From the NCBI GenBank assembly GCA_029552545.1, contig JAKPDO010000006.1, positions 1 through 64,000 of the forward strand: a DNA stretch of 64,000 nucleotides, read 5' to 3'. The position numbers and the translations under genes were made by a program. This stretch comes from Planctomycetota bacterium (GTDB lineage: Bacteria > Planctomycetota > Phycisphaerae > Sedimentisphaerales > Anaerohalosphaeraceae). Position 1 is the stretch's first letter, and each line of letters opens with the position of its first letter. Under the pieces are notes generated by a model. It was not told the DNA's origin. It did not search any database and saw nothing but the letters and a program-made list of their open reading frames with translations. This document shows positions 16,484-49,252 of this stretch, one piece after another.

Positions 16484-18100
16484 ATGAAGAGAATTACAGC
16501 AAGTCTTTTGGTATGTGGGCTTCTGGCGGTCGGCATGGCGCAGGGGGCCGAAATTCTGGTCACCAGCAATATTGCCACTTCGACAACCTGGACGGCCGAC
16601 AACACCTACAATCTGCAAAATCAGATTTATGTTCTGCCCGGTGCCACGCTGACGATTGAACCGGGAACGATTATCGCCAGCACCCCGACGACGAACGGTG
16701 CCGGCTCCCTGGCGGTCTGCCGCGGAGGCAAAATCTATGCAGTCGGAACGGCTCTGAAGCCCATTATCTTCACCTCGAAGAATGATGATTTCAAAACCTG
16801 GCGTCCGGTCTGCAATGAGTGGGGCAATCTGACCATTATGGGCAGAGCCATGATTTCCAACACCAACATTCTCAGTCAGCAGTCCTGCCCCCTCGGCTCC
16901 AATGTTTCCCCGATGGAAGGGCTTGTGGAAGAGTTTCCGGGAGATACGCGGGTTCTTTACGGCGGCAACGATGACAACGACGACAGCGGCTCGCTGATGT
17001 ATGTCTCGATTCGCTACGGCGGTCGCGTGGTCGGTCTGGCCAATGAACTCAACGGGCTTTCGCTGGGCGGTGTCGGCCGTGAAACGGATATTGCTTACCT
17101 CGAAATCATGAACAACGTGGACGACGGCATCGAAATCTGGGGCGGAACTGTCAACCTCAAGTATGTGAGCATCTGGAACGTCGGCGATGACTATTTTGAC
17201 CTCGACCAGGGCTGGAGAGGCAAGGCCCAGTTCGGTTTGGTTGTTCAGGGATACAGTGCGGATGCCGCTCAGGGGTCCGGTGTGTGCGACCACTGCTTTG
17301 AGATGGACGGCGCTGAAAACTCGGACGCCCAGCCTGTAACGACGGCGAACATCTATAACTTTACGGCTATCGGACAGCCCTTAGCCGGTCGGGCCGGTAC
17401 GGCCTGGAGAGGCAATGCCCGCGTCCAGTTCCACAACAGCATTTTTATGGAACTTGGTACGAATTTGGTTCGGTTTGACAACGCCAGCGATAACGACAAC
17501 GGTTATGCCTACAACGGAACTCTCACGTGGGCGGAAACCTGGACGACACCCTATAGTGAAGCATGGAACAAGTCCAACCCCAAGACCGGCGGACACCCGA
17601 ATGTCAGTTGTGCTTCCGAGGCCGACCTGCAGGCGATGTACCAGGCTCAGACCTCCGGCAAGCTGGCTGAAATCAACTACTGCGTATTCTATAACAACCT
17701 GAACTCCGGCGCTTATTCCAACAGCAACGGGTACAACTATGTTGCCGGTCTGAGCGGCAGCAACTGCGTTGGAAATATTTTCGCCACACAGAGCCCGATT
17801 CGTGCTTTGGTTCGCGGGGCGGATGTGACGGCCGGCGGCAAGACCCTCAAGCCGGTTGTGTTCATTGATCCCCGGGCGGTCAACGATGCTTTGACGGCGG
17901 CTCCGGCGGCTCCGGCGGATGGGTTCTTCACCCCGGTTACCTATCGCGGTGCCTTCAGCGCGTACGACAACTGGCTGGTCGGCTGGACAGCGGCTTATCA
18001 GTACGGGATGACCGGTCTGCAGGGTGATGTCACCGGCGATGACCAGGTGAATCTGGATGATATCTCCGTTCTCAGCGAGAACTGGCTCCTGAGTCTGTAA
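16484..18100 (+). CDS. Secreted beta-helix-like protein with C-terminal dockerin-like motif
   Basis: This 538-residue protein has a signal peptide (SLLVCGLLAVGMAQGAE). It then has a repetitive domain with YVLPGATLTIEPGTIIAS, LAVCRGGKIYAVG and GGVGRETDIAYLEIMNNVDD, as in secreted beta-helix proteins often found beside TonB receptors. It closes with a single dockerin-like EF-hand, GDVTGDDQVNLDDISVLSEN. No catalytic motif is recognised. A strong terminator follows at once, so it is its own transcription unit. Its position just before the TonB-receptor operon suggests it may be an abundant surface protein tied to that system; this is inference. Confidence 0.7.
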   Translation: MKRITASLLVCGLLAVGMAQGAEILVTSNIATSTTWTADNTYNLQNQIYVLPGATLTIEPGTIIASTPTTNGAGSLAVCRGGKIYAVGTALKPIIFTSKNDDFKTWRPVCNEWGNLTIMGRAMISNTNILSQQSCPLGSNVSPMEGLVEEFPGDTRVLYGGNDDNDDSGSLMYVSIRYGGRVVGLANELNGLSLGGVGRETDIAYLEIMNNVDDGIEIWGGTVNLKYVSIWNVGDDYFDLDQGWRGKAQFGLVVQGYSADAAQGSGVCDHCFEMDGAENSDAQPVTTANIYNFTAIGQPLAGRAGTAWRGNARVQFHNSIFMELGTNLVRFDNASDNDNGYAYNGTLTWAETWTTPYSEAWNKSNPKTGGHPNVSCASEADLQAMYQAQTSGKLAEINYCVFYNNLNSGAYSNSNGYNYVAGLSGSNCVGNIFATQSPIRALVRGADVTAGGKTLKPVVFIDPRAVNDALTAAPAAPADGFFTPVTYRGAFSAYDNWLVGWTAAYQYGMTGLQGDVTGDDQVNLDDISVLSENWLLSL

Positions 18101-18299: not shown

Positions 18300-19559
18300 A
18301 TGAAGACGATTATCCGTTTGCTGTGGATTGGCGTTCTGACCGCCGCTGTTTGCCCAGCGGCAGAAAAGAAGCCCCAACCCTCTGGGGCTGCGAGCGAAGC
18401 TTCGGTGCAGGAATTGCAGGACCAGCCCCTGGAACCCTGGCGGCTTGAACTGCTCGATGTGGCGTTTGAGACCGCTGCAAAAATGCCCATCAAGCCGCAT
18501 TTGAAGGACCGAAGCCGCACTCAGGCTATGGTGGTGGAAACCGCGCTGAAGCTGAACCAGCCCGAACGGGCGCTTCGATACCTGCAGCAAATCGAGAACT
18601 GGAGACGCGGGGCCTGTCTGGCGGACCTGGCCGTATACGCAGCCCGTCAACAGAATGCTCCGCTGGCGGAACAATATCTTCGGCAGGCCCGTGAGATTGC
18701 CGAAAAGGGCCTGTCCGGTGCTCACCAGGAGCCCGTTCAGGAATGGCGGCGGGACCTGATTCAATCCAAAATTGCTCAGGGTTATGCCCAGCTCGGGCAG
18801 CTCGAAACGGCCCTGAAAGCCCAGGAGGGGCTGGAGCCCTCTCAGCGGGGAAAGATGCTGCTCGGCGACTCACAGCTGCAGCAGAAAGACCTGTTCGACA
18901 AGGAGGTACAGCGTCTGGATTCTGAATTGAAACAAAACAATGCAGATGTACGCAACAATGTTCTTTTTTCGTATGCACAAATGTACGAAATGGTGTATGA
19001 CCGACAAGAACAGCGGTCTCAGCTGGAGGAGAAAATCAGGAATTCCTGGTCGCCTTTGCCTGTCTTTCTGCGGATTCAGCTGCTCACACGGCTGACAGAG
19101 GCCGCCCTGGACCATAACGACTCCGCCAAAGCTCTCGAACTGCTCGATGAGGTCCGCCGGTTGATGGAAAAATATCAGTGGCCGGATGAGACGCAGTTTA
19201 CCCTTGGGGCTCCCCTGGCTGCCCTTCGATATCGGGCCGGACAGCCGCAAGAGGCTGAAAAGGAGGTCCAAACGCTTCTGAAAAGCTATGAAGCCAAAAG
19301 GCAGTCCATCTTCAATATCTATCGAGCCGATGCTTTGCGGCCCCTGGCGGAGGCCTATGCACAAATGGATGACAAGGACACCGCGCTGGCTCTTTATAAG
19401 AGAGCGGTCGAAGAAGGAGTCGAAAATCTCAATTCTCGTCCTCGGGCGGAGGATTTGGCGGCAACCTGCTGTTCGATGGTTCTTTTTGCGGTTGAACCGG
19501 ATGCAGAATTGCGGGAACGGATTCGTCAGATTCACAAAGGATTGGGCCAGCCATGGTAA
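18300..19559 (+). CDS. Secreted TPR-like helical repeat protein
   Basis: The start is placed at ATG 18300 with AAAAGGA at 18286-18292, giving about 419 residues. An N-terminal signal segment (IIRLLWIGVLTAAVCPAAE) precedes a long all-helical array with TPR-like pairs, for example ALRYLQQIENWRRGACLADL, PLAEQYLRQAREIA and ALALYKRAVEEGVE. Domain type is inferred from helix periodicity rather than perfect TPR consensus. It overlaps the TonB-dependent receptor gene by 7 bases (ATGGTAA), so the two are translationally coupled and the protein probably works in the periplasm with that receptor. Confidence 0.65.
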   Translation: MKTIIRLLWIGVLTAAVCPAAEKKPQPSGAASEASVQELQDQPLEPWRLELLDVAFETAAKMPIKPHLKDRSRTQAMVVETALKLNQPERALRYLQQIENWRRGACLADLAVYAARQQNAPLAEQYLRQAREIAEKGLSGAHQEPVQEWRRDLIQSKIAQGYAQLGQLETALKAQEGLEPSQRGKMLLGDSQLQQKDLFDKEVQRLDSELKQNNADVRNNVLFSYAQMYEMVYDRQEQRSQLEEKIRNSWSPLPVFLRIQLLTRLTEAALDHNDSAKALELLDEVRRLMEKYQWPDETQFTLGAPLAALRYRAGQPQEAEKEVQTLLKSYEAKRQSIFNIYRADALRPLAEAYAQMDDKDTALALYKRAVEEGVENLNSRPRAEDLAATCCSMVLFAVEPDAELRERIRQIHKGLGQPW

Positions 19560-22500
19560 AACAGACGGCGTGCGGGGCTCTGGTTTGGCTGCTGATGCTG
19601 GCTATGGGACTGCCGGCTCGGGCCGCCGAGGGGATCGGCAGCATTCGCGGAACGGTCTATGACAGCGATTTCAATATGCCCATCGGGGCGGCCTCGATCG
19701 TGATTGCAGAGCTTGACCTTTCCGTCCAGACCAATCAGGACGGCCAGTTTCTTTTTTCGGAAGTGGCACCAGGAACCTATACGCTGATTGTTTCCAAATC
19801 CGGTTATACCCGCCATGTCCGCCCCGATGTGGTAGTGCAGAGCGGCCAAATGACGGAACTGGATGTGTCTTTAACCGGTGATTTTACGGATATTGAAGAG
19901 TTTGTTGTGGAAGACCTGCAGATGGGAGCGGGCACGGAAGCGGCACTGCTGGACCTGCGGATGGAAAGCCCGGCCCTGATGGATTCCATCAGTGCCGACT
20001 TGATGAGTCGAGCGGGTGCCTCCGATGCTGCCGGCGCCCTGCGGTTGGTTGCCGGTGCGACGGTTCAGGATGGGAAATACGCGGTCATTCGCAGTCTTCC
20101 TGACCGATACGTCAATTCCCAGATGAACGGCGCACGTCTGCCCACAGCCGACGCTGACAAACGGGCCGTCCAGCTGGACCAGTTCCCCGCCGCCGCCATC
20201 GAAAACATTCAGGTCAGCAAAACCTTTACACCTGACCAGCAGGGCGATGCTTCCGGAGGAGCGGTCAATATCATCCTGAAGGGTGTTCCGAACGAACGGA
20301 CGCTCAAAGCGGATTATACCGCAAGCTGGGATTATCCTTCTGCGGGGAGCCGCTTTCTTGGCTATCAGGACGGAGGAGTTAACCGATGGGGTAAAGACGG
20401 CGGAGAACGGGATATTCAGTACAATCGGCTGGGAATGAGCTGGAACGGCGCTGTCGGAGTCAGTCCTGAGGAGCAACCGGACGATTACAAATGGTCCCTG
20501 TCCGCAGGGGATAAGTTCGACTTGGCAGACGGAACCCGGTTCGGCGGATTCGGCAGTTTCTTTTATGAAAAAGACAGCTCTTATAAGGAAGGACAGGATG
20601 ATTCGTTATGGGTCCGAAGCCCCGGTCAATCCATGACCCCTCGACAAACGCAAATTGAAGGATGGGATTCCTTTAAAACATCACTCTGGGATATTCGGGA
20701 AAGCACCCAATCCGTTCAGTGGGGCGGTTTAGGCACCGCCGGAATCGAGCTGGAAGACCACCAGTTTTCTATTTTGTATCTTTATACACGCATAGCCGAA
20801 GACACCGCCACACTGGCCGAAAATACACGCGGGAAAAAAAGTCTGCATCGATATTGGCCGGACTTTTTCGGACCTGAGTTTGACAACTATGACCCGTATG
20901 ACCCGGATCATCCCGGCAACTCCGAAGCCCCGGATGCCTCTCCGTATCTGCGTTCCGAAACGCTTGAATATACCGAACGGACCACCCGCACCCTCCAGTT
21001 CAGCGGTCGTCATACTCTGTTTGATTTGGACCTGAGTCTGGGCCGCTGGCTGCGGACTCTGCCGCCGGAGGTGGATTGGAAGATTGCCTACAGTTCCGCC
21101 GGGATGGTTCAGCCCGACAAGCGAATGTTCGGCACCAAATGGTATCCGCTGATTGAAGGCGGACAGGTAGTCGGTCAGCACCAGCCCTTTAAACCCTCCG
21201 CTAATTTTACGATGGGCTATCTCCAGAGAGTCTGGAAACAGATTACGGAAGACAGCGACCAATATCAGGTCAATCTCAAACTTCCGTTTGAACAGTGGGA
21301 CGGTCAGGAGGGGTATCTAAAGTTCGGATTCTTTGAAGACACTGTGACCCGACGATACAATCAGGAGTCATTTGCCAATTTTGCCGATAATCAAATGGGC
21401 CCCAAAAAGCCGTGGGAGTTCTATTGGAGCAGTACATTTCCGACCGAAAATCACCCCATTACGGCCGGTCAGGTCGATGTGGACTATAAAGGCCTGCAAA
21501 AAATTTCCGCCTGGTATTATATGATGGATATGCCCCTGACCTCCCAGTTTAACCTGATTGGAGGAAACCGGATCGAAAAAACCAACCTTGAAATTGTCAA
21601 CCAGCCTGAATCCGAGGTTTTCTGGTATCCTAAAGGTTCTTACACTGCCGTAAAACTCAACCCCGGTGATGCGGATGTCTCCACGCAGCAGACCGATATC
21701 CTGCCCTCTATCGGGTTTCAGTATCGTCCGTGGGACCCGATTACCCTTCGCGGCTCTTACAGCGAAACCATTGCCCGACAAACCCTGAAAGAATTAACGC
21801 CGATTATGCAAAGCGAGTACTTAGGCGGCGATGTCTTTATCGGAAATCCGGACCTGCAGACCAGCTCCCTGAAAAATTACGACCTGCGGCTGGATTACAC
21901 CCCGTATGCGGGCAGTCTCATTTCGCTCTCCTGGTTTCATAAAAAGGTCAAGGACCCCATCGAGTATGTCCAGCGGGTTACGGCCTCGTTCGATTACACG
22001 ACCGCCGTCAATTACCCGGAAGGCCAAATGAGCGGCTATGAACTGGAACTCCGTCAGGACCTGGCCCGTTTTTGGGAAAGTATGAACGGCCTTTCCGTCG
22101 GGGGCAACGCCACGCTGATCAATTCCGAGGTGACGCTTCCGCCTGATGAGGCCGCGCGGTTCAATCATCCCAATGTTCGTGCGCCGATGACCAAGCGGGA
22201 TATGACCAATGCCCCGGCTTATCTTTACAATATCTATCTGACTTATGATGTACCCGAAGTCAAAACGCAGCTGGCCCTGTTTTATACGGTGCGCGGCGAT
22301 ACCCTCGTGGCTGGTGCCAGCCCGGGTGCCGGTCAGACCCGCGTGCTGATTCCCAGTCTCTATGAAACCGAGTACGGCACGCTCAATTTCAGTCTGACCC
22401 AGCCCCTCGGGTCTGTTTGGAAACTGAAGTTTCAGGCCAAGAATCTGCTCGACCCGGAAATCAAAACGGTGTACCGCTCCAAATATATCGGAGACGATGT

Positions 22501-22561
22501 AACCAAAAGTTCGTATCGGAGGGGAATGGAGTTTTCCCTCAGTCTAAGCGCATCTTTTTAG
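19553..22561 (+). CDS. TonB-dependent receptor with carboxypeptidase-regulatory-like domain
   Basis: This outer-membrane protein has 1002 residues. A signal peptide (LLMLAMGLPARAAE) precedes a CarboxypepD_reg-like beta-sandwich at ~28-110 (GSIRGTVYDSDFNMPIGAAS, VAPGTYTLIVSKSGYT). The plug domain follows at ~120-255, with AAIENIQVSKTFTPDQQGDASGG. The rest is a beta-barrel with alternating aromatic strands, ending in phenylalanine (SLSASF) as BAM substrates do. The classical TonB box could not be pinpointed. It starts inside the upstream TPR gene and is followed by the full DUF3450-ExbB-ExbB-ExbD-TonB set. Substrate is unknown; carbohydrate oligomers or metal complexes are both possible. Confidence 0.92.
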   Translation: MVKQTACGALVWLLMLAMGLPARAAEGIGSIRGTVYDSDFNMPIGAASIVIAELDLSVQTNQDGQFLFSEVAPGTYTLIVSKSGYTRHVRPDVVVQSGQMTELDVSLTGDFTDIEEFVVEDLQMGAGTEAALLDLRMESPALMDSISADLMSRAGASDAAGALRLVAGATVQDGKYAVIRSLPDRYVNSQMNGARLPTADADKRAVQLDQFPAAAIENIQVSKTFTPDQQGDASGGAVNIILKGVPNERTLKADYTASWDYPSAGSRFLGYQDGGVNRWGKDGGERDIQYNRLGMSWNGAVGVSPEEQPDDYKWSLSAGDKFDLADGTRFGGFGSFFYEKDSSYKEGQDDSLWVRSPGQSMTPRQTQIEGWDSFKTSLWDIRESTQSVQWGGLGTAGIELEDHQFSILYLYTRIAEDTATLAENTRGKKSLHRYWPDFFGPEFDNYDPYDPDHPGNSEAPDASPYLRSETLEYTERTTRTLQFSGRHTLFDLDLSLGRWLRTLPPEVDWKIAYSSAGMVQPDKRMFGTKWYPLIEGGQVVGQHQPFKPSANFTMGYLQRVWKQITEDSDQYQVNLKLPFEQWDGQEGYLKFGFFEDTVTRRYNQESFANFADNQMGPKKPWEFYWSSTFPTENHPITAGQVDVDYKGLQKISAWYYMMDMPLTSQFNLIGGNRIEKTNLEIVNQPESEVFWYPKGSYTAVKLNPGDADVSTQQTDILPSIGFQYRPWDPITLRGSYSETIARQTLKELTPIMQSEYLGGDVFIGNPDLQTSSLKNYDLRLDYTPYAGSLISLSWFHKKVKDPIEYVQRVTASFDYTTAVNYPEGQMSGYELELRQDLARFWESMNGLSVGGNATLINSEVTLPPDEAARFNHPNVRAPMTKRDMTNAPAYLYNIYLTYDVPEVKTQLALFYTVRGDTLVAGASPGAGQTRVLIPSLYETEYGTLNFSLTQPLGSVWKLKFQAKNLLDPEIKTVYRSKYIGDDVTKSSYRRGMEFSLSLSASF

Positions 22562-22691: not shown

Positions 22692-23522
22692 ATGAACAGA
22701 AGTCTTTCAGAAAAAACAGGCTGCGGAAAAGGGCATCCGAAGTTTTCACCGTCCGGCGTCCGTCGATGGCTGGTCGGGCTGGCTGTTGTCGGCCTTCTTT
22801 TCTCTCCGGTCCGGGCCTCGGACACAGCCGAGATGCTGGAAACCATCCGAACCACCACGGAAAAATGGGTGGAAACCCAACGGATTCTATCCAAAGAGAA
22901 GCGGGATTTCACCCTGGCCAAAGAACTCCTGGCCGAACGGATTGCGCTGCTGGAGCGGGAGATTGAATCGTTTGAAAATAAAATTCGAGAAGCGGACGCC
23001 GGCATTGCCGAAGCCGACCGCAAACGCAATGAAATGCTCGAGGAAAAAGATCGGCTGCTTGATGCTGTTTCTGTACTTAAGAAACTCGTCGACCAGATGG
23101 AAGAGCGGGTTTGCGGTCTGCTGGAGCGTCTTCCTGAACCGCTTCGTGAGCATGTAAAGCCTCTCAGCCAGCGACTCGGCAAAGCAACGGAGTTGTCCCG
23201 TCTGTCTTTGTCGGAGCGTTTTCAGAATGTCATAGGCATTCTGAATGAAGTAGACAAATTTCACAAGGAAATTACAGCTGCCAGCGAAATACGCACACTT
23301 CCGGACGGAACCTCGCAGGAGGTTGCCGCCGTTTACGTCGGCATCAGCTGCGGGTATTTCAGCAATCCGGCCCAGAGCGTAGGCGGATTTGGATTCCCGG
23401 ATGAAAACCGGTGGAACTGGACCTTCAAACCGGAGATTGCTGGCTCCGTCAGCGATTTAATCGCCATATTGAAAAATGAGAAAACCGCTTCTTACATTCT
23501 TCTGCCTTTAACCATTCAGTAA
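22692..23522 (+). CDS. DUF3450 family periplasmic coiled-coil protein of a TonB/ExbB system
   Basis: The 276-residue protein has a signal peptide (WLVGLAVVGLLFSPVRAS), then a long coiled coil rich in E/K/R heptads (residues ~45-130) and a globular C-terminal part (VAAVYVGISCGYFSNPAQS, GFGFPDENRWNWTF). This layout is DUF3450 (PF11932), whose genes stand immediately before long ExbB/TtpC genes in marine TonB loci. The molecular role is not established; it probably contacts the periplasmic extension of the following ExbB-like protein. A ribosome-binding AGGAAGG lies upstream. The gene follows the receptor by 130 bases with no terminator. Confidence 0.82.
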   Translation: MNRSLSEKTGCGKGHPKFSPSGVRRWLVGLAVVGLLFSPVRASDTAEMLETIRTTTEKWVETQRILSKEKRDFTLAKELLAERIALLEREIESFENKIREADAGIAEADRKRNEMLEEKDRLLDAVSVLKKLVDQMEERVCGLLERLPEPLREHVKPLSQRLGKATELSRLSLSERFQNVIGILNEVDKFHKEITAASEIRTLPDGTSQEVAAVYVGISCGYFSNPAQSVGGFGFPDENRWNWTFKPEIAGSVSDLIAILKNEKTASYILLPLTIQ

Positions 23523-23535
23523 ATAAGGAATCAGC

Positions 23536-25389
23536 ATGACACGGTCCTTTCGAACAACCATTCTGCATAGAAGTCTGGCTGGGATTCTCCTTGCGCTGGG
23601 GTTTGTCTCGGTCGGGTACGGACAAAACCAGACGGCGGATGTGAACGCCTCCGTTCAGAAAATTCAGCAGAAACTGGATGACAGTCTGGCCGAACTGGCT
23701 GCCTTCCGGCAGCAGATGGCCGAGGAGCTGCTGCCCCTGAACCGGCGAATCAACGAGCTGGAAAACCGGCTGCTCGAAGTCCGCCGGCAGTACCAGCAGA
23801 CTTCCCGCCTGCTCGACGGGCGCACGCTGGACCTGAGCACCCTCCGCAATGAAATCAAGGCCCGTCAGGAGGAGGCGTCTTATCTGTCCGGCCTTCTGGG
23901 AGAATACATTCGCAATTTTGAATCCCGTCTGCATATTGCCGAACTTCAGCGGTATCGGGCGGTGCTCGAGGAGGCCAAACTGGCGGCGGAAAACCGAACC
24001 CTCAGTCCGATGGAAATTTATGAGGCGCAGGGCCGCCTGCTCCTGACGGCTCTGGACCGTCTGGAAGAAGCCCTCGGCGGGGCCCGTTTTGAAGGCACCG
24101 CTGTAGATTCCAGCGGTCTGGTGCAGAAAGGGACATTTGTTCTGCTGGGGCCGATTGCCCTCTTCCGCTCTCATGACGGGCGCGTGGTAGGCACCGTGGA
24201 ACAGCAGCTCGGCTCTCTCGAACCGACCGTTCTGCCGTTTGAAAATCCGCAGATAGCCCAGACCGCCGCCGAACTGATTGAGACATCTCAGGGGCTTTTT
24301 CCCCTGGACCCGACTCTCGGCAATGCCCGGAAAATTGAGCAGACTCGCGAAACCCTTCTGGAGCATATTCAGAAGGGCGGCCCGGTCATGATACCGATTT
24401 TCGCCCTGGCGGGTGCTGCGTTTCTGGTGGCCCTGTTTAAATGGTTCAGTATGCTCTGGATTCGGATGCCTTCCGCCAAAAAAATCAATGCCTTTCTTAA
24501 GGCGGTTGCAAAAATGGATTCCGCCGAAGCGAAGGAAAAAGCCCGCGTTATCCGGGGCCCGATTGGGCAAATGCTTCGCGTTGGTGCAGAGCACATGAAC
24601 GAGCCGCGAGAGCTCATCGAGGAGATTCTGTATGAAAAAATCCTGGCGGTTCGTCTGAAACTGGAGAGGTTTCTTCCCTTTGTTGCCGTCAGTGCCGCCT
24701 GTGCACCGCTGCTGGGGCTTCTCGGAACGGTGACCGGCATTATCAACACCTTCAAACTGATTACCGTGTTCGGCTCCGGAGACGTCAAAACTCTCTCCGG
24801 CGGCATTTCTGAAGCCCTGATTACAACCGAATTCGGTCTGATTGTGGCGATTCCTTCGCTGCTGATTCATGCCTTTCTCTCCCGCAAATCCAAAGGGATT
24901 CTCAACCAGATGGAAAAGACGGCTTTTGCGTTCCTTAACGAGCTGGCCAAAGCCGCCGCCCATACCCCATCGGTTTCGACGGCTCCGGCGGCTGCCGCCG
25001 AGCCGGTGCAGGGAAAGCCGGCTTTCCAGCCGTCTGTACAAATTCCGCCGTTTGTCCAGGCGGAACCTGAGACCAAAATCGCTGACATTCTCGTGCAGAT
25101 TCTTGCCCTTGAAAACGGGGATTCTCTCGAGCGGATATTTGTTGTGGACAAAGCCGGTAAATATCTTGGTTCCATTCAGGTTCAGGAACTGATGGCCCGG
25201 CCTGTTAATACACCTGTAGAGCATCTGCTTGACCGCAAGGAATCTTTTATTCGAATTGATGCGCATCCCCGACAAGTCCAAAAGGCCTTCGAGCAGCACA
25301 AAGACACGCACCTTCCGGTTTTGGACCATCAGGACCGTCTGGTCGGTCAGGTAAGCCGGAACGCATTGAGTCGTCAGGAGGTCCAGTGA
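23536..25389 (+). CDS. TtpC-like long ExbB/TolQ/MotA proton-channel protein with C-terminal CBS-like domain
   Basis: The protein has 617 residues. It starts with a signal peptide, then has a periplasmic coiled-coil region (~35-130) and an unassigned domain to ~275. The MotA/TolQ/ExbB channel (about 275-460) has [20 protein letters not shown] and [21 protein letters not shown] proline/alanine linker then leads to a tail (~515-617) reading IFVVDKAGKYLGSIQVQEL and THLPVLDHQDRLVGQVSRNA, the pattern of a CBS-domain pair. CBS domains bind adenosine nucleotides or metals and gate channels and transporters. Its stop overlaps the next start (GTGA), so coupling is tight. Confidence 0.85.
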   Translation: MTRSFRTTILHRSLAGILLALGFVSVGYGQNQTADVNASVQKIQQKLDDSLAELAAFRQQMAEELLPLNRRINELENRLLEVRRQYQQTSRLLDGRTLDLSTLRNEIKARQEEASYLSGLLGEYIRNFESRLHIAELQRYRAVLEEAKLAAENRTLSPMEIYEAQGRLLLTALDRLEEALGGARFEGTAVDSSGLVQKGTFVLLGPIALFRSHDGRVVGTVEQQLGSLEPTVLPFENPQIAQTAAELIETSQGLFPLDPTLGNARKIEQTRETLLEHIQKGGPVMIPIFALAGAAFLVALFKWFSMLWIRMPSAKKINAFLKAVAKMDSAEAKEKARVIRGPIGQMLRVGAEHMNEPRELIEEILYEKILAVRLKLERFLPFVAVSAACAPLLGLLGTVTGIINTFKLITVFGSGDVKTLSGGISEALITTEFGLIVAIPSLLIHAFLSRKSKGILNQMEKTAFAFLNELAKAAAHTPSVSTAPAAAAEPVQGKPAFQPSVQIPPFVQAEPETKIADILVQILALENGDSLERIFVVDKAGKYLGSIQVQELMARPVNTPVEHLLDRKESFIRIDAHPRQVQKAFEQHKDTHLPVLDHQDRLVGQVSRNALSRQEVQ

Positions 25390-26063
25390 GCGAGATGAAT
25401 CTTCCAATTCGGGTTTCCGAGATGCTGCGGTTTCTGCCCGAGTCGGTGCAGGCATTCTTTGCGGAGGCCTGGAACATCTGGCTGTCGGGCGGCTGGGCTA
25501 TGACGGCCATTGCCGTCGTCGGCATTGTGATGTTCGGGCTTGGAGTTCATCTGTGGCTTCGTTTTGCGGAAAAAGGATTTTTCCGAATCCGCGAAAACAT
25601 CTGGCGCCAGTGGCTCCGGCAGCCTGAGCTTCGAAGAGGAACCGTCGGGCGAATCTTCGATGAGGTATCCGGTTTTTCCACGCTCAAAGACTGTGTTCGT
25701 TTCTTTGAGGAACTCAAAACAGATGAGCTGGGACCTTTTGAAAGAGACCTGCGGGTGATGAAAATCTGCGTCAGCCTGGCGCCCCTGCTGGGACTGCTGG
25801 GAACTGTAACGGGGATGCTGGCCACGTTTTCGGCACTGGCATCCGGAAGCGGCGGAGAAAAAACCATGGCGATGGTTGCCGGCGGCATTTCCGAAGCCCT
25901 TATCACAACGGAGACCGGCCTGATTATCGCTTTGCCGGGTCTGTTTTTTCACTATCAGCTGGTTCGAAAACAGAACCGATACAAGGCCTTTCTGGCGCAT
26001 TTGGAAACCGTCTGCACCCAGCATCTTTATAAACAAATCCTCCGGTCAAAAGGAGACAACTGA
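25386..26063 (+). CDS. exbB: ExbB/TolQ/MotA-family proton-channel protein
   Basis: The protein is 225 residues from GTG 25386 (an internal ATG at 25395 is an alternative). It has three membrane segments: one near residues 38-58 and two in the conserved channel core, [20 protein letters not shown] and [20 protein letters not shown]. It would form the pentameric channel that couples proton flow to TonB together with the adjacent ExbD. It overlaps the upstream long ExbB by 4 bases and ExbD by 1 base, forming the core of the energising complex. Having two ExbB-type proteins, one long and one short, is typical of TtpC-containing TonB2-like systems. Confidence 0.93.
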
Positions 26064-26476
26064 TGGGACGTTTTCGTTCAATCGCATCCGATGACAATCA
26101 GGATGTCGGGATTGATATTTCCCCGCTGATGGACTGCGTCTTTATTCTGCTGATTTTTTTCATTGTGACGACCACGTTTGTGGAGGAAACCGGAATCGAG
26201 GTGGACAAACCGCAGGCGGCCTCCTCGGTGCGTCTGGAGAAAAACAGCATTCTGATAGCCCTGACCGATAAGGGACAGGTGGTGTACGGGGGACGTGAGA
26301 TCGGCTTTAGCGGCATCCAGCCCCTTGTCAAGCGAATGCTCCAGAAAGAACAGGTGCCTGTGATTATTCAGGCCGATCAGGGGGCTCCCTCCGGCCAGCT
26401 GGTTCGGGTTATTGATGAGGCCAAACTGGCCGGGGCGGTCAAAGTGAGTGTCGCGTCTCGACAAGGCAGCCCGTAA
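26063..26476 (+). CDS. exbD: ExbD/TolR-family biopolymer transport protein
   Basis: The 137-residue protein has a short cytoplasmic N-terminus, the essential aspartate at the start of the single membrane helix in [18 protein letters not shown], and a periplasmic domain ending [17 protein letters not shown]. This is the complete ExbD architecture. The start shares one base with the exbB stop (TGATG). It works with ExbB as proton-driven motor for TonB. Confidence 0.94.
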
Positions 26477-26496: not shown

Positions 26497-27156
26497 ATGC
26501 GTGCACTGTTTCGATGGTTCTGGAAACTGTTTCATCGTCTGGCGGTTCTGCTGGGCGGCATCGGGATGACCCTGCTGTTTTTCCTGATTCTGCCGCTGAT
26601 GCAGACCTTGGCCAAGCCGCCTGCGGCGGACTTGATTCTGCGCCCTGTCGATACAGCCAAACTGGATGCTCCGCCACCGCCGCCGGAGGAAAAGCCGCCG
26701 CAGGAGCCGGATCCTGAAGACAAACCGCCGGAGCTGACCGAAGAGGCGCCGCCGCTGACGCTCGAGCAGCTGACGCTGGCGCTGAATCCGTCGCTCAGCG
26801 GGAGCTGGATGGAAGGAGATTTTGCCGTCTCCCTGCAGAATGTCGCGGCGGAAACCAAAAACGCCGAGGCCCCTTTTTCCATTGCAGACCTCGACCAGAA
26901 GCCGCGTGTGATTTATCAGTCCAGTCCGCTGATGACCAAAGAGCTCCGAAAGAAAACGCCCGGAACGGTGTATATTATTTTTGTCGTCGATGAACAGGGA
27001 CGGGTCGAAAATCCAACCGTACAGTCCAGCACCGACCCGATTTTTGAAAAGCCCGCCCTGAATGCCGTCAAACAGTGGAAATTTGAACCCGGCCGGCGAA
27101 ACGGTCAGCCGGTTAAGTTTCGTATGCGGGTACCGATTACGTTTCCGAAAGGATAA
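26497..27156 (+). CDS. tonB: TonB-family energy transducer
   Basis: The 219-residue protein has one N-terminal membrane helix (VLLGGIGMTLLFFLILPLM), then a proline- and glutamate-rich periplasmic spacer (about residues 45-90, many PPP/KPP runs), and the C-terminal TonB domain with GTVYIIFVVDEQGRVENPTV, ALNAVKQWKFEPGRRNGQPV and FRMRVPITF. The YP-equivalent pairing strand and the W-x-F-x-P motif are intact. It would transmit energy from ExbBD to outer-membrane receptors. It follows exbD by 20 bases. Confidence 0.93.
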   Translation: MRALFRWFWKLFHRLAVLLGGIGMTLLFFLILPLMQTLAKPPAADLILRPVDTAKLDAPPPPPEEKPPQEPDPEDKPPELTEEAPPLTLEQLTLALNPSLSGSWMEGDFAVSLQNVAAETKNAEAPFSIADLDQKPRVIYQSSPLMTKELRKKTPGTVYIIFVVDEQGRVENPTVQSSTDPIFEKPALNAVKQWKFEPGRRNGQPVKFRMRVPITFPKG

Positions 27157-27162
27157 AAAGAC

Positions 27163-28566
27163 ATGGTTTGTGCGATTCGTTGTTCTGCGATTCTGGCTCT
27201 GATGGTGAGTGTATCTCCGTTTTGCGGGGTTCTGTGCCGGGCGGAGGAACCGGCTCAGCCGCTGCCGGAGTCTTTTTTGTCCTTCTGGAATCAGCCGGCT
27301 TTCCAGCAGCGTTTGGCGGAAAGCTACCTGGCGGAAACGGATATTGAACCCCGTCTGACTGTCGAAGAACGCGAACGGCTTCTGAAAATCCTGAATCTGA
27401 TTTCGTCGGATAAGATGAATGATGCGGCTACCGCTCTTCAAAAAGAGCTGGCCCAAAATGCCGCCGCCAGCGCCGTTTTTGATTTTACGCTGGCCAACAT
27501 TTATTTTCAACAGGAGAAACTGAATGAGGCGGCCGCCGCCTACCGGCAGGCCGTTCAGAAGTTTCCGAAATTCCGGCGGGCCTGGCGCAATTTGGGTCTG
27601 ATCTGCATCCGGAACAGCGATTTTGCCGGTGCCGCCGCCGCGCTCACCAAAGTGATTGAGCTGGGCGGCTCCGATGCCGTCACGTACGGTCTGCTCGGGT
27701 TCGCCTATGCCTCGCTGGATGACCATCTGGCGGCCGAGTCGTCCTATCGAATGGCCGTCCTGCTGGACCCGGCTACGATGGACTGGAAAATGGGGCTGGC
27801 ACGAAGTCTGTTCCGACAGGAGCGGTATCCGGAAGCCGCCGCCCTCTGTGAATCGCTGCTTCGGCAGATGCCGGATCGGGCGGATTTGTGGCTCCTTATG
27901 GCCAATGCCTCTCTCGGAATGAACAAACCGCTCAAAGCCGCCGAGATTTTTGAGTGGCTGGACACCCTGGGCCGTTCGACCGCCGAAAGTCTGCTGCTGC
28001 TTGGCGATATTTACATCAATGAGGAACTCTATGAATCCGCTGTCAGGGCCTACACACGGGCCCTCGAGCAGAAACTGTCTGTGCCTGCCGAACGGCTCCT
28101 TCGGGCATCCAGAGCCCTGATGGCGCGCGGAGCTCTGGCGGAAAGCCGGCAGCTGCTGGAGCGGATGCAGCAGGCCTTTGAAGGACAGTTCACGGATTCT
28201 CTGAAGGTGGAAATGCTCAAGCTCCAGGCCCGGATTGCTGTGGCTGAAGGCGCCGGCAGTGAAGAGCAGATTCGCCTGCTGGAGGAAATTATTGCGATTG
28301 ACCCGCTGGACGGCGAGGCCCTCATCCTGCTCGGACAGCACTGGGGGAAAATGCAGAATCCGGAAAAGGCGGTCTTTTACTTCGAGCGGGCGGCGGCTAT
28401 CGAGAAATACGAAGCCCAGGCCCGAATCCGCCATGCCCAGCTGCTGGTGCAGCAGGGCAAGTATGAAGAGGCCATTCCGCTGCTTCGGCGGGCTCAGCAG
28501 ATTGACCCGCGGGACAACGTCCGCGAATACCTCGAGCAGGTGGAACGGGCCGCCAAAACCCGCTGA
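27163..28566 (+). CDS. Secreted TPR-repeat protein of the TonB locus
   Basis: The 467-residue protein has a signal segment (ILALMVSVSPFCGVLCRAEE) and then about ten TPR units. Clear ones include ANIYFQQEKLNEAAAAYRQA, AWRNLGLICIRNSDFAGAAA, LGDIYINEELYESAVRAYTR and AQLLVQQGKYEEAIPLLRRA. TPR proteins stand next to TonB2/TtpC-type gene sets in other bacteria and probably scaffold the periplasmic part. It follows tonB by 6 bases. No enzymatic motif is seen. Confidence 0.85.
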   Translation: MVCAIRCSAILALMVSVSPFCGVLCRAEEPAQPLPESFLSFWNQPAFQQRLAESYLAETDIEPRLTVEERERLLKILNLISSDKMNDAATALQKELAQNAAASAVFDFTLANIYFQQEKLNEAAAAYRQAVQKFPKFRRAWRNLGLICIRNSDFAGAAAALTKVIELGGSDAVTYGLLGFAYASLDDHLAAESSYRMAVLLDPATMDWKMGLARSLFRQERYPEAAALCESLLRQMPDRADLWLLMANASLGMNKPLKAAEIFEWLDTLGRSTAESLLLLGDIYINEELYESAVRAYTRALEQKLSVPAERLLRASRALMARGALAESRQLLERMQQAFEGQFTDSLKVEMLKLQARIAVAEGAGSEEQIRLLEEIIAIDPLDGEALILLGQHWGKMQNPEKAVFYFERAAAIEKYEAQARIRHAQLLVQQGKYEEAIPLLRRAQQIDPRDNVREYLEQVERAAKTR

Positions 28567-31201: not shown

Positions 31202-32236
31202 TTACGAGGTCCGGATGTCCGGCTTGCGATGAGCCGCTTTGATTGCTGCGGCAATCCCCGCGGTCAGCACCAGCGTCAGAAGACCGCCTACAATGCCGGA
31301 TACGCTTGTGCCGACATCGACGGCAGGCCAGCGAGCGTCCTCGGATTCTTCCGGATGAGCGGTCTTAAAACTGTAATCCGGCAAAATCGCTGTTTTTTCC
31401 TGAATTTGAGCCAGCGAAGAATGAATGCCTTTTTCCGGTGATTCCAGTTCTTCTTTGCCCGATACCCGTGCCGTTGACCATTCCAGTCCGTCCGGATAGG
31501 TGGAGGCAAACCAGCTGGCCGCTCCGCCCAGCACAACGGCCGCCGTCAAAAACACCAAAGCCGTTCTGCGAATGGAAGGAGCCGGCAGGGCGGTTTTCGG
31601 CGAAAGGATAATTTGCGGTTTGTTTTGCAGGACAAACAGGACAACCGCCGACGTCGCAAGCCCTTCCACGATGCCGATTGCCAGATGAATCGGCTGCATC
31701 GCCAGCACAAACAGCCCAAAGGGCAGCTCGCTGATGCCGGACAAAACTGTTTCTATCACGACGGAAAAAGCCCCCAGCTGAAGACCGACAACCGCCGCAA
31801 GCATCGAACCCCAAAGGATACGTTTTCGAGTCGGGTTCTTTCCGGCAATCGGCTGGTAAATCAGCGGATAGGCAACAAAACAGGTCCAGAAACCCAGATT
31901 AAAGATGTTGCACCCGAGGGCCAGCAGTCCGCCGTCTGCAAAAAACAATGCCTGAATGACCAGAATTGAGGCCATCGTCACGAACCCCGCCCAGGGACCC
32001 AGCAGAACAGCCAGCAGCAGTCCGCCGCCCAGGTGCCCGCTGGACCCGGTGCCCGGAATCGTAAAGTTGAGCATCTGGGCCGCAAACACAAACGCCCCGG
32101 CCACCCCCATCAGCGGGATTTTGCTTTCCTGAAACTCCTGCCGGATTTTTCTGCAGGAATAGCCCAGCAGTCCGGCGCTGACGGCCCACATCGTCCCGCC
32201 GACTGCCGGCGACAGCAGCGCATCCGCCATATGCAT
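31202..32236 (-). CDS. nikMN: NikM/CbiM-type ECF permease fused to a PDGLE (CbiN/NikN-like) domain
   Basis: The 344-residue protein begins MHMADALLSPAVGGTMW, keeping the Met-His N-terminus that coordinates the metal in NikM/CbiM. About seven membrane helices follow, with IPGTGSSGHLGGGLL and CNIFNLGFWTCFVAYPLIY. The C-terminal part has the PDGLE motif (STYPDGLEWS) and a last helix, the NikN/CbiN-like component. It would bind and import Ni2+ (or Co2+). Nickel is favoured because nikR lies 1.4 kb away. The ATPase (NikO) and T-component (NikQ) expected for an ECF importer are absent from the window. It lies 17 bases after the porin gene, in one operon. Confidence 0.9.
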   Translation of the reverse strand: MHMADALLSPAVGGTMWAVSAGLLGYSCRKIRQEFQESKIPLMGVAGAFVFAAQMLNFTIPGTGSSGHLGGGLLLAVLLGPWAGFVTMASILVIQALFFADGGLLALGCNIFNLGFWTCFVAYPLIYQPIAGKNPTRKRILWGSMLAAVVGLQLGAFSVVIETVLSGISELPFGLFVLAMQPIHLAIGIVEGLATSAVVLFVLQNKPQIILSPKTALPAPSIRRTALVFLTAAVVLGGAASWFASTYPDGLEWSTARVSGKEELESPEKGIHSSLAQIQEKTAILPDYSFKTAHPEESEDARWPAVDVGTSVSGIVGGLLTLVLTAGIAAAIKAAHRKPDIRTS

Positions 32237-32253
32237 GCAAAGCCCTCCGTTTC

Positions 32254-33513
32254 TTAGAACGTAATCACAGTCCGCACACCCGCTACGACGGCATCCTTTG
32301 ATTCACCCATCCCGCCCGGATTGGTTACATACTGAATCGACGGCGTGATGGTCATCCAACCGGCTGCTTTCCAGGCGTAGTACGCTTCCAGCACACTTTC
32401 AAAATCTTCCGTAAATGGGCTTCCGCTGCGGTCGCTTAAAACCCCGTGTGCATAGCCGATGCCCAGCACATCCGCATCGCGTCCCTCCAAAAGCCCTTCA
32501 TACTGGATGCCGCCGCTGTAAAAATGGCTGACGGCGTTCGACCGCCCATTCGCATAGCCGTAGCGGAAAAAGGTTCCGAGTCCCTGGCTGTCGTCCGGGC
32601 TGCTGTTTTCTTTGCAAAGCATCTGGTCAAAGCTCAGATAAAAGCCCGTATCGTCCCGATAGAATCGGGTTTCATCCAGAGCGGCCTTCGGCTGCGGGTC
32701 GTACCATACACCGACGCGATACGCTCCCGGCAGGGCCCCATTGGCCGAATTCAAGGCAGGTGTCAGTCCCGTCTCGGCCATATACACAAAGTAGTCTTCC
32801 TGATGAAAGGCAGTATTCAGGCCCGTTTCCCGCTTGTCCGCCTGGGCGTCCGCCGCTCCGAAGGAGATATACCACAGGTCAGAAGGCGCCCACAGCACGA
32901 TTGCTCCAATCCCGTAATCCGGAAACGGAATCGTCGGGTTGTTCACGAGGGCCGAGTTGAGGAACTGCGTGTTTTCGTCATTGGCATAGCGGCTGCAGTC
33001 AAACGAGACCGGACAGCCCCGGCATTCAAACCCGCCGGTCATGTCAATTTTCCCAAACCGTACCTGAAGCGTATCGTCCCAGAGATTCTGCTGATACCAC
33101 AGTTCAATCAGGTTCAGGGCCTCGCGCGGGGTAAAATCTCCGTTGACACCGAAGAGCGACTGAACGGAGGTTTCGTCAAGACCCCGCCGGGGCCAGGTGC
33201 CTTCGGCGTGCAGATACAGCGTACCGCCTGTCAGACCGGCCAGCCGCTCCATATCCGTGTCCAGTTCGAGGTCATAACTGCCCGACCAGCGTCCCTGATG
33301 CCGATGCGTGCTGATTCCCCCGCGGGCATTCTGCTGGTAAATGCTTGTCAGACTCAGCCCGAGCTGAATTCCCGACGGCTCCCAGAGTTCATTCAGGCCC
33401 GCAAATCCGTCCGTCAGCGACTCTCGCTGCCAGAGACTTTCAGTTCCTTCTGCAAAAGTTAACGAAGCAATCAGCAGGATAAATCCTATGAATCCCACAA
33501 ACAGGTTCCGCAT
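32254..33513 (-). CDS. OprB-like outer-membrane porin, probable nickel-regulated
   Basis: The start at ATG 33513 follows a strong AAGGAGGG site and gives 419 residues; the frame extends upstream but without a signal peptide. The signal sequence is NLFVGFIGFILLIASLTFAE. The body resembles carbohydrate-selective porin OprB: LQVRFGKIDMTGGFECRGC, IGAIVLWAPSDLWYISFGAA, LPGAYRVGVWYDPQP and the terminal strand DAVVAGVRTVITF, ending in phenylalanine. It is the first gene of a two-gene unit with nikMN, divergent from nikR, so it may admit nickel chelates across the outer membrane. The substrate is inferred from this context. Confidence 0.82.
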   Translation of the reverse strand: MRNLFVGFIGFILLIASLTFAEGTESLWQRESLTDGFAGLNELWEPSGIQLGLSLTSIYQQNARGGISTHRHQGRWSGSYDLELDTDMERLAGLTGGTLYLHAEGTWPRRGLDETSVQSLFGVNGDFTPREALNLIELWYQQNLWDDTLQVRFGKIDMTGGFECRGCPVSFDCSRYANDENTQFLNSALVNNPTIPFPDYGIGAIVLWAPSDLWYISFGAADAQADKRETGLNTAFHQEDYFVYMAETGLTPALNSANGALPGAYRVGVWYDPQPKAALDETRFYRDDTGFYLSFDQMLCKENSSPDDSQGLGTFFRYGYANGRSNAVSHFYSGGIQYEGLLEGRDADVLGIGYAHGVLSDRSGSPFTEDFESVLEAYYAWKAAGWMTITPSIQYVTNPGGMGESKDAVVAGVRTVITF

Positions 33514-33574
33514 GAACCCTCCTTTCTCGATAAGCAAAGAAAGTTTAGATAAATCGTAAGAGACACGGCGCATA

Positions 33575-36397: not shown

Positions 36398-38824
<2,427 letters not shown>

Positions 38825-46972: not shown

Positions 46973-49252
46973 CTATTCTAAAATTGCTATATTTAAATTT
47001 CTAGCAAGTTTTATGATTTCTTCTCGACCAATAAGAGTTATCCTCTTGCCGGATGCAAATTCTTTTGCTTCTGAAGTAAAGTCTGAACTCGTTACAAAAT
47101 CTCCCCTGGTAATGCTTTGATCGGAAGAAACTATTCCCCAAAACTGTTGTACAACAGGCCGTCCTACATTTGCTTTTTGGTGTTTGCATTGTATTACAAC
47201 TTTGTCTCGAGCAGCACCGGTCAATTTTTCCGCAAGAATATCGATTCCCATGTCATGGCTACCCGCTGTAATTCTAATATTATAGCCTTGTTTTTCATAG
47301 ATATTTGCAATAAGGTTTTCAAATTGCTGAGGTGATAGGTTATCAAAAATCAATGATATGAGGGCTTCTTTCTTCTCTTGGCCTTTAGGTTTAATTTTGA
47401 GGTTAAACAGAGAAAAGATTTCTTCTTCGGATAGACCCATGCTTTCTTCGATCTTATTTTCGTCAATAACCTGGCGGAAAAGGCATCTTTTTTCCGACAG
47501 TTTTCTAAGAATCCTCTCCTCAATTGTGTTTTTACAATAAAATTTACGAACAAATACCTTCTGAGTCTGGCCGATTCTATGAGCTCTTTTGATTGCCTGA
47601 TCTTCGACAGCAGGATTCCACCACCGATCGAAAAGATAGACATAATTAGCTTTTTGTAAGTTGAGCCCCACACCTCCAATAGTGTAATTAAGGAGTAAAC
47701 AGGCTACTAAATTGTCATTGAGGAATTCTTCTTTTACGTCATCACGTTTACGTGGGGAATACTCCCCATGAAGTTGAAGGGCTCTGAAATTTTTCTTTTC
47801 TAGTTCCTTCGCGATACGTTTTATGCCATACTCTTCGCTAACGAACTGCGAAAAGACTAAGACTTTTCTTTTATTTTCTACAATCTCCTCAAGATCTTCT
47901 ATCAATCTTTCTGTTTTGGCACTGAATCCATTTGTAGGACAAAAATTGCATATTTGTCTAAGCCGATTAATCAAAGCAAAAACATGTGTAACCGTTATCG
48001 ATTCTCCCTTTTCCTTCAATTCCACAACGCCTTCCTCCTCCATTTGTTTATAGACACCAAAATGCTCAGGGTCAAGATCAATGGCAACGTCTTCTTCAAT
48101 CTTTTCAGGCAGGTCGATATTGACTTCTTCAACACGTCGTCTAAGAATGTAAGGTTTAACTTTTGTTGAGATTGTAGACTGTTGCATGTTGTTGTTAACT
48201 AGCCCTGGAACTAAAAAATCAAAAATGGATACTAAATCATCAATCTTGTTTTCAAGCGGTGTTCCTGTTAAGGCCCAACGACGAGATGCTTTCAGTAATT
48301 TAACAGCTTGTGAAATTTTTGATTTTGGGTTTTTAATACGTTGTGCCTCATCAATAATAACTAAATCGTGAGAGAATTTCTGGTCTTTAAGCCATGCTAA
48401 TTCACGAGCAAGAGACTCGTAGTTCATAATTTTGACAATCACATTCGCCATTCCCATTCTTAAGAAAAACTGTCTATCTCTTCCTACAATCGCAATATTT
48501 CCCTCAATGTTTGGCCACCATTTATTTATTTCAATTTTCCAATTCGAAATCAATGTTTTTGGGCATATTATGAGAATTTGATTAATAGTTTTCTGTTTCC
48601 ACAGCAGTCTCGCTGCGATAATCGCTTGCATCGTTTTGCCCAGACCCATCTCGTCGGCAAGAAGAGCTTTTTCCCTATCAAAAAGCCATTTAACTCCAAA
48701 AGACTGAAAACGATACGGTCTTTCAGGAAGATATAATTGTGGATCTAATAAAATATTGTTTATGGGTGGAGTGAGAATCCACTTAAGTCGCTCTTTCAAC
48801 CCTTTTTCTTCAAAACCTGGTGGTTTTGGTGGTCTTGGATGTGAAACTCTACCTCCATATGTGCGGATAATTCTTGGATAGGGAAAATTTTTTAGTAATT
48901 CAGACCTCTCTTTCTCAAAATCAATCCTGTTTATGTTAATTCTGATTGATAATGGGATTGCAAGGCATTTCAAAATAAGATAGACTTCTGTTAAATTCAC
49001 TATCTTGAGGTTGAATGAAATCATGATGGAGTTTTTGTCTTGGAGAACAAACTCAACATTTTTGACTATTATCGGTTTTGTGAGGAAAAAATTTAAAGGT
49101 GAATTATTAATGATAGGATTAATGCTTAATTGGGAGTGTTTTATATTTTCGATATTAGCAACTTGTTGAATGATTTCCGTAAGAGAGATTATTTCAATCT
49201 TTCTCTTGAGTTTTTCAAGTATTTTTTTCTTTTTATTATTTACACCAAACAT
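46973..49252 (-). CDS. SNF2-family helicase/translocase fused to a C-terminal Mrr-type restriction endonuclease
   Basis: The protein has 759 residues. Residues 1-170 are an unassigned lysine/isoleucine-rich N-terminus. The SNF2 core follows: Walker A ADEMGLGKTMQAI (~199-211), Walker B IIDEAQRIKNPKSK (~299-312), ALTGTPLENKIDDLV, and motifs V/VI TIGGVGLNLQKANYV and AIKRAHRIGQTQKV. Residues ~640-759 form an Mrr-like nuclease with LSPQQFENLIANIYEKQGY, the catalytic D of HDMGIDILAEKL and QCK in VVIQCKHQK. DNA translocation coupled to cleavage, as in defence systems, is expected. The base composition is strikingly AT-rich compared with its neighbours. The start is 2 bases after the orf180 stop. Confidence 0.9.
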   Translation of the reverse strand: MFGVNNKKKKILEKLKRKIEIISLTEIIQQVANIENIKHSQLSINPIINNSPLNFFLTKPIIVKNVEFVLQDKNSIMISFNLKIVNLTEVYLILKCLAIPLSIRININRIDFEKERSELLKNFPYPRIIRTYGGRVSHPRPPKPPGFEEKGLKERLKWILTPPINNILLDPQLYLPERPYRFQSFGVKWLFDREKALLADEMGLGKTMQAIIAARLLWKQKTINQILIICPKTLISNWKIEINKWWPNIEGNIAIVGRDRQFFLRMGMANVIVKIMNYESLARELAWLKDQKFSHDLVIIDEAQRIKNPKSKISQAVKLLKASRRWALTGTPLENKIDDLVSIFDFLVPGLVNNNMQQSTISTKVKPYILRRRVEEVNIDLPEKIEEDVAIDLDPEHFGVYKQMEEEGVVELKEKGESITVTHVFALINRLRQICNFCPTNGFSAKTERLIEDLEEIVENKRKVLVFSQFVSEEYGIKRIAKELEKKNFRALQLHGEYSPRKRDDVKEEFLNDNLVACLLLNYTIGGVGLNLQKANYVYLFDRWWNPAVEDQAIKRAHRIGQTQKVFVRKFYCKNTIEERILRKLSEKRCLFRQVIDENKIEESMGLSEEEIFSLFNLKIKPKGQEKKEALISLIFDNLSPQQFENLIANIYEKQGYNIRITAGSHDMGIDILAEKLTGAARDKVVIQCKHQKANVGRPVVQQFWGIVSSDQSITRGDFVTSSDFTSEAKEFASGKRITLIGREEIIKLARNLNIAILE

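Follow-up and report, generated by a model that had tools for sequence, protein, structure and literature searches.

Gene row around the CBS-tailed protein

The window, which denotes the whole analysed stretch of 64,000 nucleotides, contains a gene row composed of a TonB-dependent receptor, a DUF3450 protein, a TtpC-type gene encoding 617 aa, ExbB, ExbD, TonB and a TPR protein (Table 1), in which the start of the second ExbB overlaps the stop of the 617-aa gene by 4 bases. From DUF3450 (TtpB) to the TPR protein (TtpD), this order is shared with the TonB2 set of V. vulnificus, which is described in passages of PMC6957404 as TtpB2 (DUF3450), TtpC2, ExbB2, ExbD2, TonB2 and TtpD2 (TPR), with TtpB2 and TtpD2 being needed in this system. 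The ExbB channel core is likewise common to the TtpC of the Vibrio TonB2 set and the window protein. A matching gene row was recognized in a Pseudoalteromonas locus (L102), for which the ORF translations were judged by eye, and the product of its gene in the TtpC position matched the 617-aa protein with 6e-35 in BLASTP, the alignment running from residue 243 onward. The Pseudoalteromonas protein comprises 455 aa and stops after the channel domain, whereas the window protein continues into a CBS pair. Judged from gene order and alignment, the operon is of the DUF3450-TtpC-ExbB-ExbD-TonB-TPR type, and the 617-aa protein constitutes its first, TtpC-type ExbB.

Table 1. Genes of the TonB operon and parts of the 617-aa protein, with positions in the window.
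Feature	Position	Strand	Basis
TonB-dependent receptor with CarboxypepD_reg domain	19553..22561	+	PF00593, PF13620; TIGR01782 below its cut-off
DUF3450 protein (TtpB position)	22692..23522	+	PF11932, 1.6e-25
CBS-tailed TtpC-type ExbB-family protein, 617 aa	23536..25389	+	Exact ORF; Pfam; operon position; similarity to Pseudoalteromonas
N-terminal part (residues ~30-280) following the signal peptide, predicted periplasmic, coiled-coil-like helix	23623..24375	+	Sequence; ExbB-family topology
MotA/TolQ/ExbB channel domain, three TM, residues ~283-475	24382..24960	+	Pfam; alignment
Variable linker, residues 476-505	24961..25050	+	Alignments
CBS1, residues ~506-556	25051..25203	+	Single-sequence and profile searches; alignment
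CBS2, residues ~560-611, ending past the last strand, without MgtE plug helix	25213..25368	+	Pfam; profile
Second ExbB, 225 aa, without CBS	25386..26063	+	PF01618, 3.7e-23
ExbD	26063..26476	+	PF02472, 2.5e-27
TonB	26497..27156	+	PF03544, 9.9e-17
TPR protein (TtpD position)	27163..28566	+	TPR families

In the 617-aa protein, MotA_ExbB (PF01618) matched residues 342-460 with 8.8e-30 and 103.5 bits compared to a cut-off of 22.9. The proton path of E. coli ExbB involves T148, E176 and T181 in TM2 and TM3. Their aligned counterparts T398, E426 and T431 were invariant across a 10-row alignment. While the channel core and these three residues are common to E. coli ExbB/TolQ and the window protein, the latter additionally has the long predicted periplasmic N-terminal part and the CBS tail. 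Because of the operon order, the Pseudoalteromonas alignment and the kept proton-path residues, the body of the protein is regarded as a TtpC-type ExbB whose channel seems to be intact. Following the general topology of ExbB, the tail would be located in the cytoplasm. A long ORF opposite the gene (23449-25455, minus strand) was considered mechanical and given no weight.

Upstream of the receptor, 16484-18100 (plus strand) encodes a secreted protein of 538 aa with a dockerin-like end and no Pfam match at 1e-4. An alignment of 305 columns (2e-37) showed 34% identity to a Pseudoalteromonas protein of 917 aa (L102:9889-12642), which sits after a TonB operon of the same type. This may be a secreted protein family travelling with this TonB module between phyla.

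The tail as a CBS pair and its relation to MgtE

The first-pass annotation had proposed an ExbB-type channel with a C-terminal CBS pair similar to that of MgtE, and both sequence strings quoted for it were found within the 617-aa ORF. In Pfam, CBS reached 34.2 bits (cut-off 24) over two stretches, the better one comprising residues 571-611, so that MotA_ExbB and CBS are both above their cut-offs. In a single-sequence search, residues 479-617 matched T. thermophilus MgtE at 2.4e-7, spanning both CBS motifs. CBS was detected in all 14 related tails, and the matches of a profile of these tails were headed by MgtE structures (2yvy with 8.4e-27; the top five are all MgtE). At the level of sequence profiles, the C-terminal tail is confirmed as a true tandem CBS pair, and the proposed combination as well as its likeness to MgtE hold. 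The weaker half in the window protein is CBS1, which has lost the entry motif DSAGGxM present in most relatives. AlphaFold2 gave a pLDDT of 42.6 for the window tail as a lone sequence, which is too low to inform on the fold.

The origin of the tail was addressed by a tree of 39 CBS regions. It included 20 MgtEs of the window's order (Sedimentisphaerales) chosen by their match to the tail profile, with L201 dropped as a duplicate of L161. In this tree, the 14 tails form one clade (92/91), which is nested in the MgtE clade of the order (99/98). The two MgtEs encoded by the window genome itself lie apart from this clade, as do those of T. thermophilus and E. faecalis. MgtE ORFs of the order match the tail part at about 1e-31 to 1e-42, and a block EDSAGGxMD...VRxLLTRPE is common to the tails and these MgtEs. 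Among the 14 tails, the top identity to an MgtE of the order ranged from 0.28 to 0.57, the lowest value belonging to the strongly diverged window tail, whose genus forms a very long branch in the tail tree.

The homology to the cytosolic CBS domain of MgtE covers the whole CBS pair and extends in relatives to the end of the N domain. In the alignments, the linker of the relatives, corresponding to residues 476-505 in the window protein, matches the final stretch of the MgtE N domain together with EDSAGG. In four tails (L027, L029, L032 and L028) the linker preceding CBS1 still resembles the N-domain end (LAEMPAAVAREV...), and therefore more than the CBS pair was captured. The transmembrane domain of MgtE, its plug helix and most of its N domain are, in contrast, missing from the tailed protein. 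Tree and alignments together identify the tail as a fragment captured from an MgtE of the order, for which a single capture represents the simplest reading.

Distribution and selection

In a survey of 161 genomes of the order, a close TtpC homologue (E at most 1e-50) was found in 20, of which 14 carry the full tail and 6 are untailed. In a sample of 397 genomes of the class, all 12 full-length matches lay within the order, and 15 genomes outside of it matched the channel part only or little more. Among 392 genomes sampled from the phylum, the four full-length matches again belonged to the order, while 29 genomes outside the class matched up to model position 155 of 263 and no further. The tail profile was furthermore compared with six-frame translations of 124 loci outside the order, 80 of which come from several phyla and represent the best 80 of 541 relatives; no segment was obtained at E values up to 1. 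A scan of viral contigs for tail relatives also gave none. Taken together, the tail was found within the order, in 14 of 20 genomes with a close homologue, while the samples outside of it gave negative results. This agrees with the claim that the combination is rare, as far as the samples searched are concerned. Some TtpC-type proteins outside the order (L207, L209, L171, L174, L178 and L179) show another short conserved C-terminal motif, similar to DPELVREQVNEILxDLLGPL.

A grouping of the tailed bodies as one clade was not retained, since the tree of the ExbB bodies needs five changes and the constrained grouping was weakly rejected (p-AU 0.03). In this tree, 5 of 18 outgroup loci (L051, L152, L154, L156 and L166) had been removed by a motif filter. 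The single tail clade combined with the scattered tailed bodies may reflect one capture followed by several losses or exchanges of the tail. An HMM scan in three frames behind seven untailed genes detected no relics of a lost tail (best E 1.2). Since the tailed bodies do not form one clade and 6 of the 20 genomes are untailed, the basic system can do without the tail.

The six untailed genomes as well as the very long branch of the window genus would fit a functionless tail that is tolerated as a passenger. The substitution rates (NG86) speak against this. For the CBS pair, comparison of three genomes from the window's genus gave dN/dS values of 0.083, 0.107 and 0.172, and for two further genera the values were 0.043 and 0.109. 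In these five comparisons from three genera, the channel part showed 0.036-0.098 and the linker 0.053-0.346. The values of the CBS pair are thus similar to those of the channel and periplasmic parts and lie below the adjoining linker in four of the five comparisons. With a dN/dS of 0.04-0.17, the CBS pair is kept by purifying selection, and a mere passenger is considered very improbable.

Ligand sites and possible role of the tail

The first-pass annotation had further proposed that the CBS pair could gate proton flow by energy state, CBS modules being sensors of adenine nucleotides or metal ions. In the first case, binding of ATP, ADP or AMP would open or close the proton path of the energiser according to the energy state of the cell. 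CBS pairs commonly bind adenine nucleotides, although the canonical nucleotide motif of Ser/Thr and Asp is not universal among them. According to passages of PMC5529423, the CBS domain of T. thermophilus MgtE binds ATP via Y170, R187, D188, N203, V207 and F227, and an F227A mutant does not bind it. At these positions, the window protein has R, Q, E, D, S and D. Among the 14 tails, R187 is kept in nine, N203 in two and V207 in one, whereas Y170, the ribose Asp D188 and the adenine-stacking F227 are found in none. The CBS ligand motif, a Ser/Thr and an Asp after each Gly, is complete in neither half of any of the 14 tails, the Ser/Thr being present in 1/14 for CBS1 and 7/14 for CBS2 and the Asp at its canonical place in 0/14 for both. 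Despite the frequent R187, a gate of this kind is therefore judged improbable, and the proposal is not borne out, above all with regard to D188, F227 and the canonical Asp. Y170, D188 and F227 are also missing in all 20 sampled MgtEs of the order (L159, L160, L182-L199). The parent was therefore already without them, and their loss is not specific to the tail. This suggests that MgtE gating in the order proceeds without ATP.

In the second case, the tail would sense cytoplasmic Mg2+ or another divalent ion like its MgtE parent, a Mg2+-gated channel, and adjust uptake. The Mg2+ sites 2-7 of MgtE are given in passages of PMC5882242 as E258, D259, D91/D247, D226/D250, D95 and E59. The tails stop 7-19 residues past G241, so that D247, D250, E258 and D259 of the plug helix are absent, as is E59, and in the two best-aligned tails D95 was found by eye to be lost. 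Half of the tails (7 of 14) retain D226 (Mg5), which would agree with metal sensing, as would the origin from a Mg2+-gated channel, but the window protein has a Lys at this position. Gating by metal is accordingly as improbable as gating by nucleotide and could not be upheld either. Lacking the ATP residues and most Mg2+ ligands of MgtE, the tails argue by these residue counts against MgtE-style sensing of ATP or Mg2+ as the leading reading.

Non-canonical ligand binding is frequent among CBS pairs, and together with the purifying selection this would be consistent with the sensing of a different small ligand and a real allosteric control of the energiser. A conserved pocket was, however, not recognized in the tails; their conserved new feature is an end motif R-N (R in 13/14, N in 12/14) and not a cleft. 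The sensing of a different ligand is thus unlikely, even if it ranks next after the self-association described below. The related idea that the captured MgtE CBS pair was re-tuned to a new cytoplasmic ligand, which decides whether proton flow drives outer-membrane uptake, is regarded as doubtful. If true, the TonB energiser would respond to a signal from the cytoplasm, and the ExbB family would have a ligand-gated member.

To the explanation by a cytoplasmic, self-associating CBS module that tunes or tethers the TtpC/ExbB assembly we give about an even chance. CBS pairs self-associate via CBS-CBS contacts in MgtE. In the proposed course of events, a Mg2+ channel of the MgtE type from the same order would have donated its CBS pair, which was fused once onto the cytoplasmic C terminus of a TtpC-type energiser, the partner of an ordinary ExbB-ExbD-TonB set. 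The cut falls just past the last CBS strand, leaving out the plug helix and nearly the whole N domain of MgtE. On the cytoplasmic face, the CBS pair would then associate with itself and tether or tune assemblies of TtpC and ExbB, whose conformation presumably affects energisation, and it would work without the ATP or Mg2+ sites known from MgtE. Since ExbB-family channels are pentamers, CBS dimers are a poor fit. Formation of a heterodimer with MgtE as the purpose of the tail is disfavoured, 3 of the 14 tailed genomes (G056, G127 and G130) being without a PF01769 match.

Control of energised outer-membrane uptake is usually ascribed to gene expression. A conserved domain of a cytoplasmic regulatory type on an ExbB-family protein would make direct post-translational control of a TonB motor testable, for which the natural tailed and untailed pairs within one order and the known parent domain represent ready controls. 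No report of a fusion of ExbB, TtpC, TolQ or MotA with CBS was found in the titles or abstract openings of papers retrieved by full-text searches of the open-licence literature, and in PMC12204202 on force transducers the terms CBS and TtpC do not occur.

Some further genes of the window were noticed. At 31202-33573 (minus strand), not far from the TonB operon, a CbiM with a PDGLE domain adjoins an OprB-type porin, and the two may form a pair for the uptake of cobalt or nickel. A membrane pyrophosphatase of the H+ type is encoded at 36398-38824 (minus strand; 865.7 bits), and an SNF2-type helicase with a C-terminal Mrr-like nuclease domain at 46973-49252 (minus strand) is a possible defence gene.
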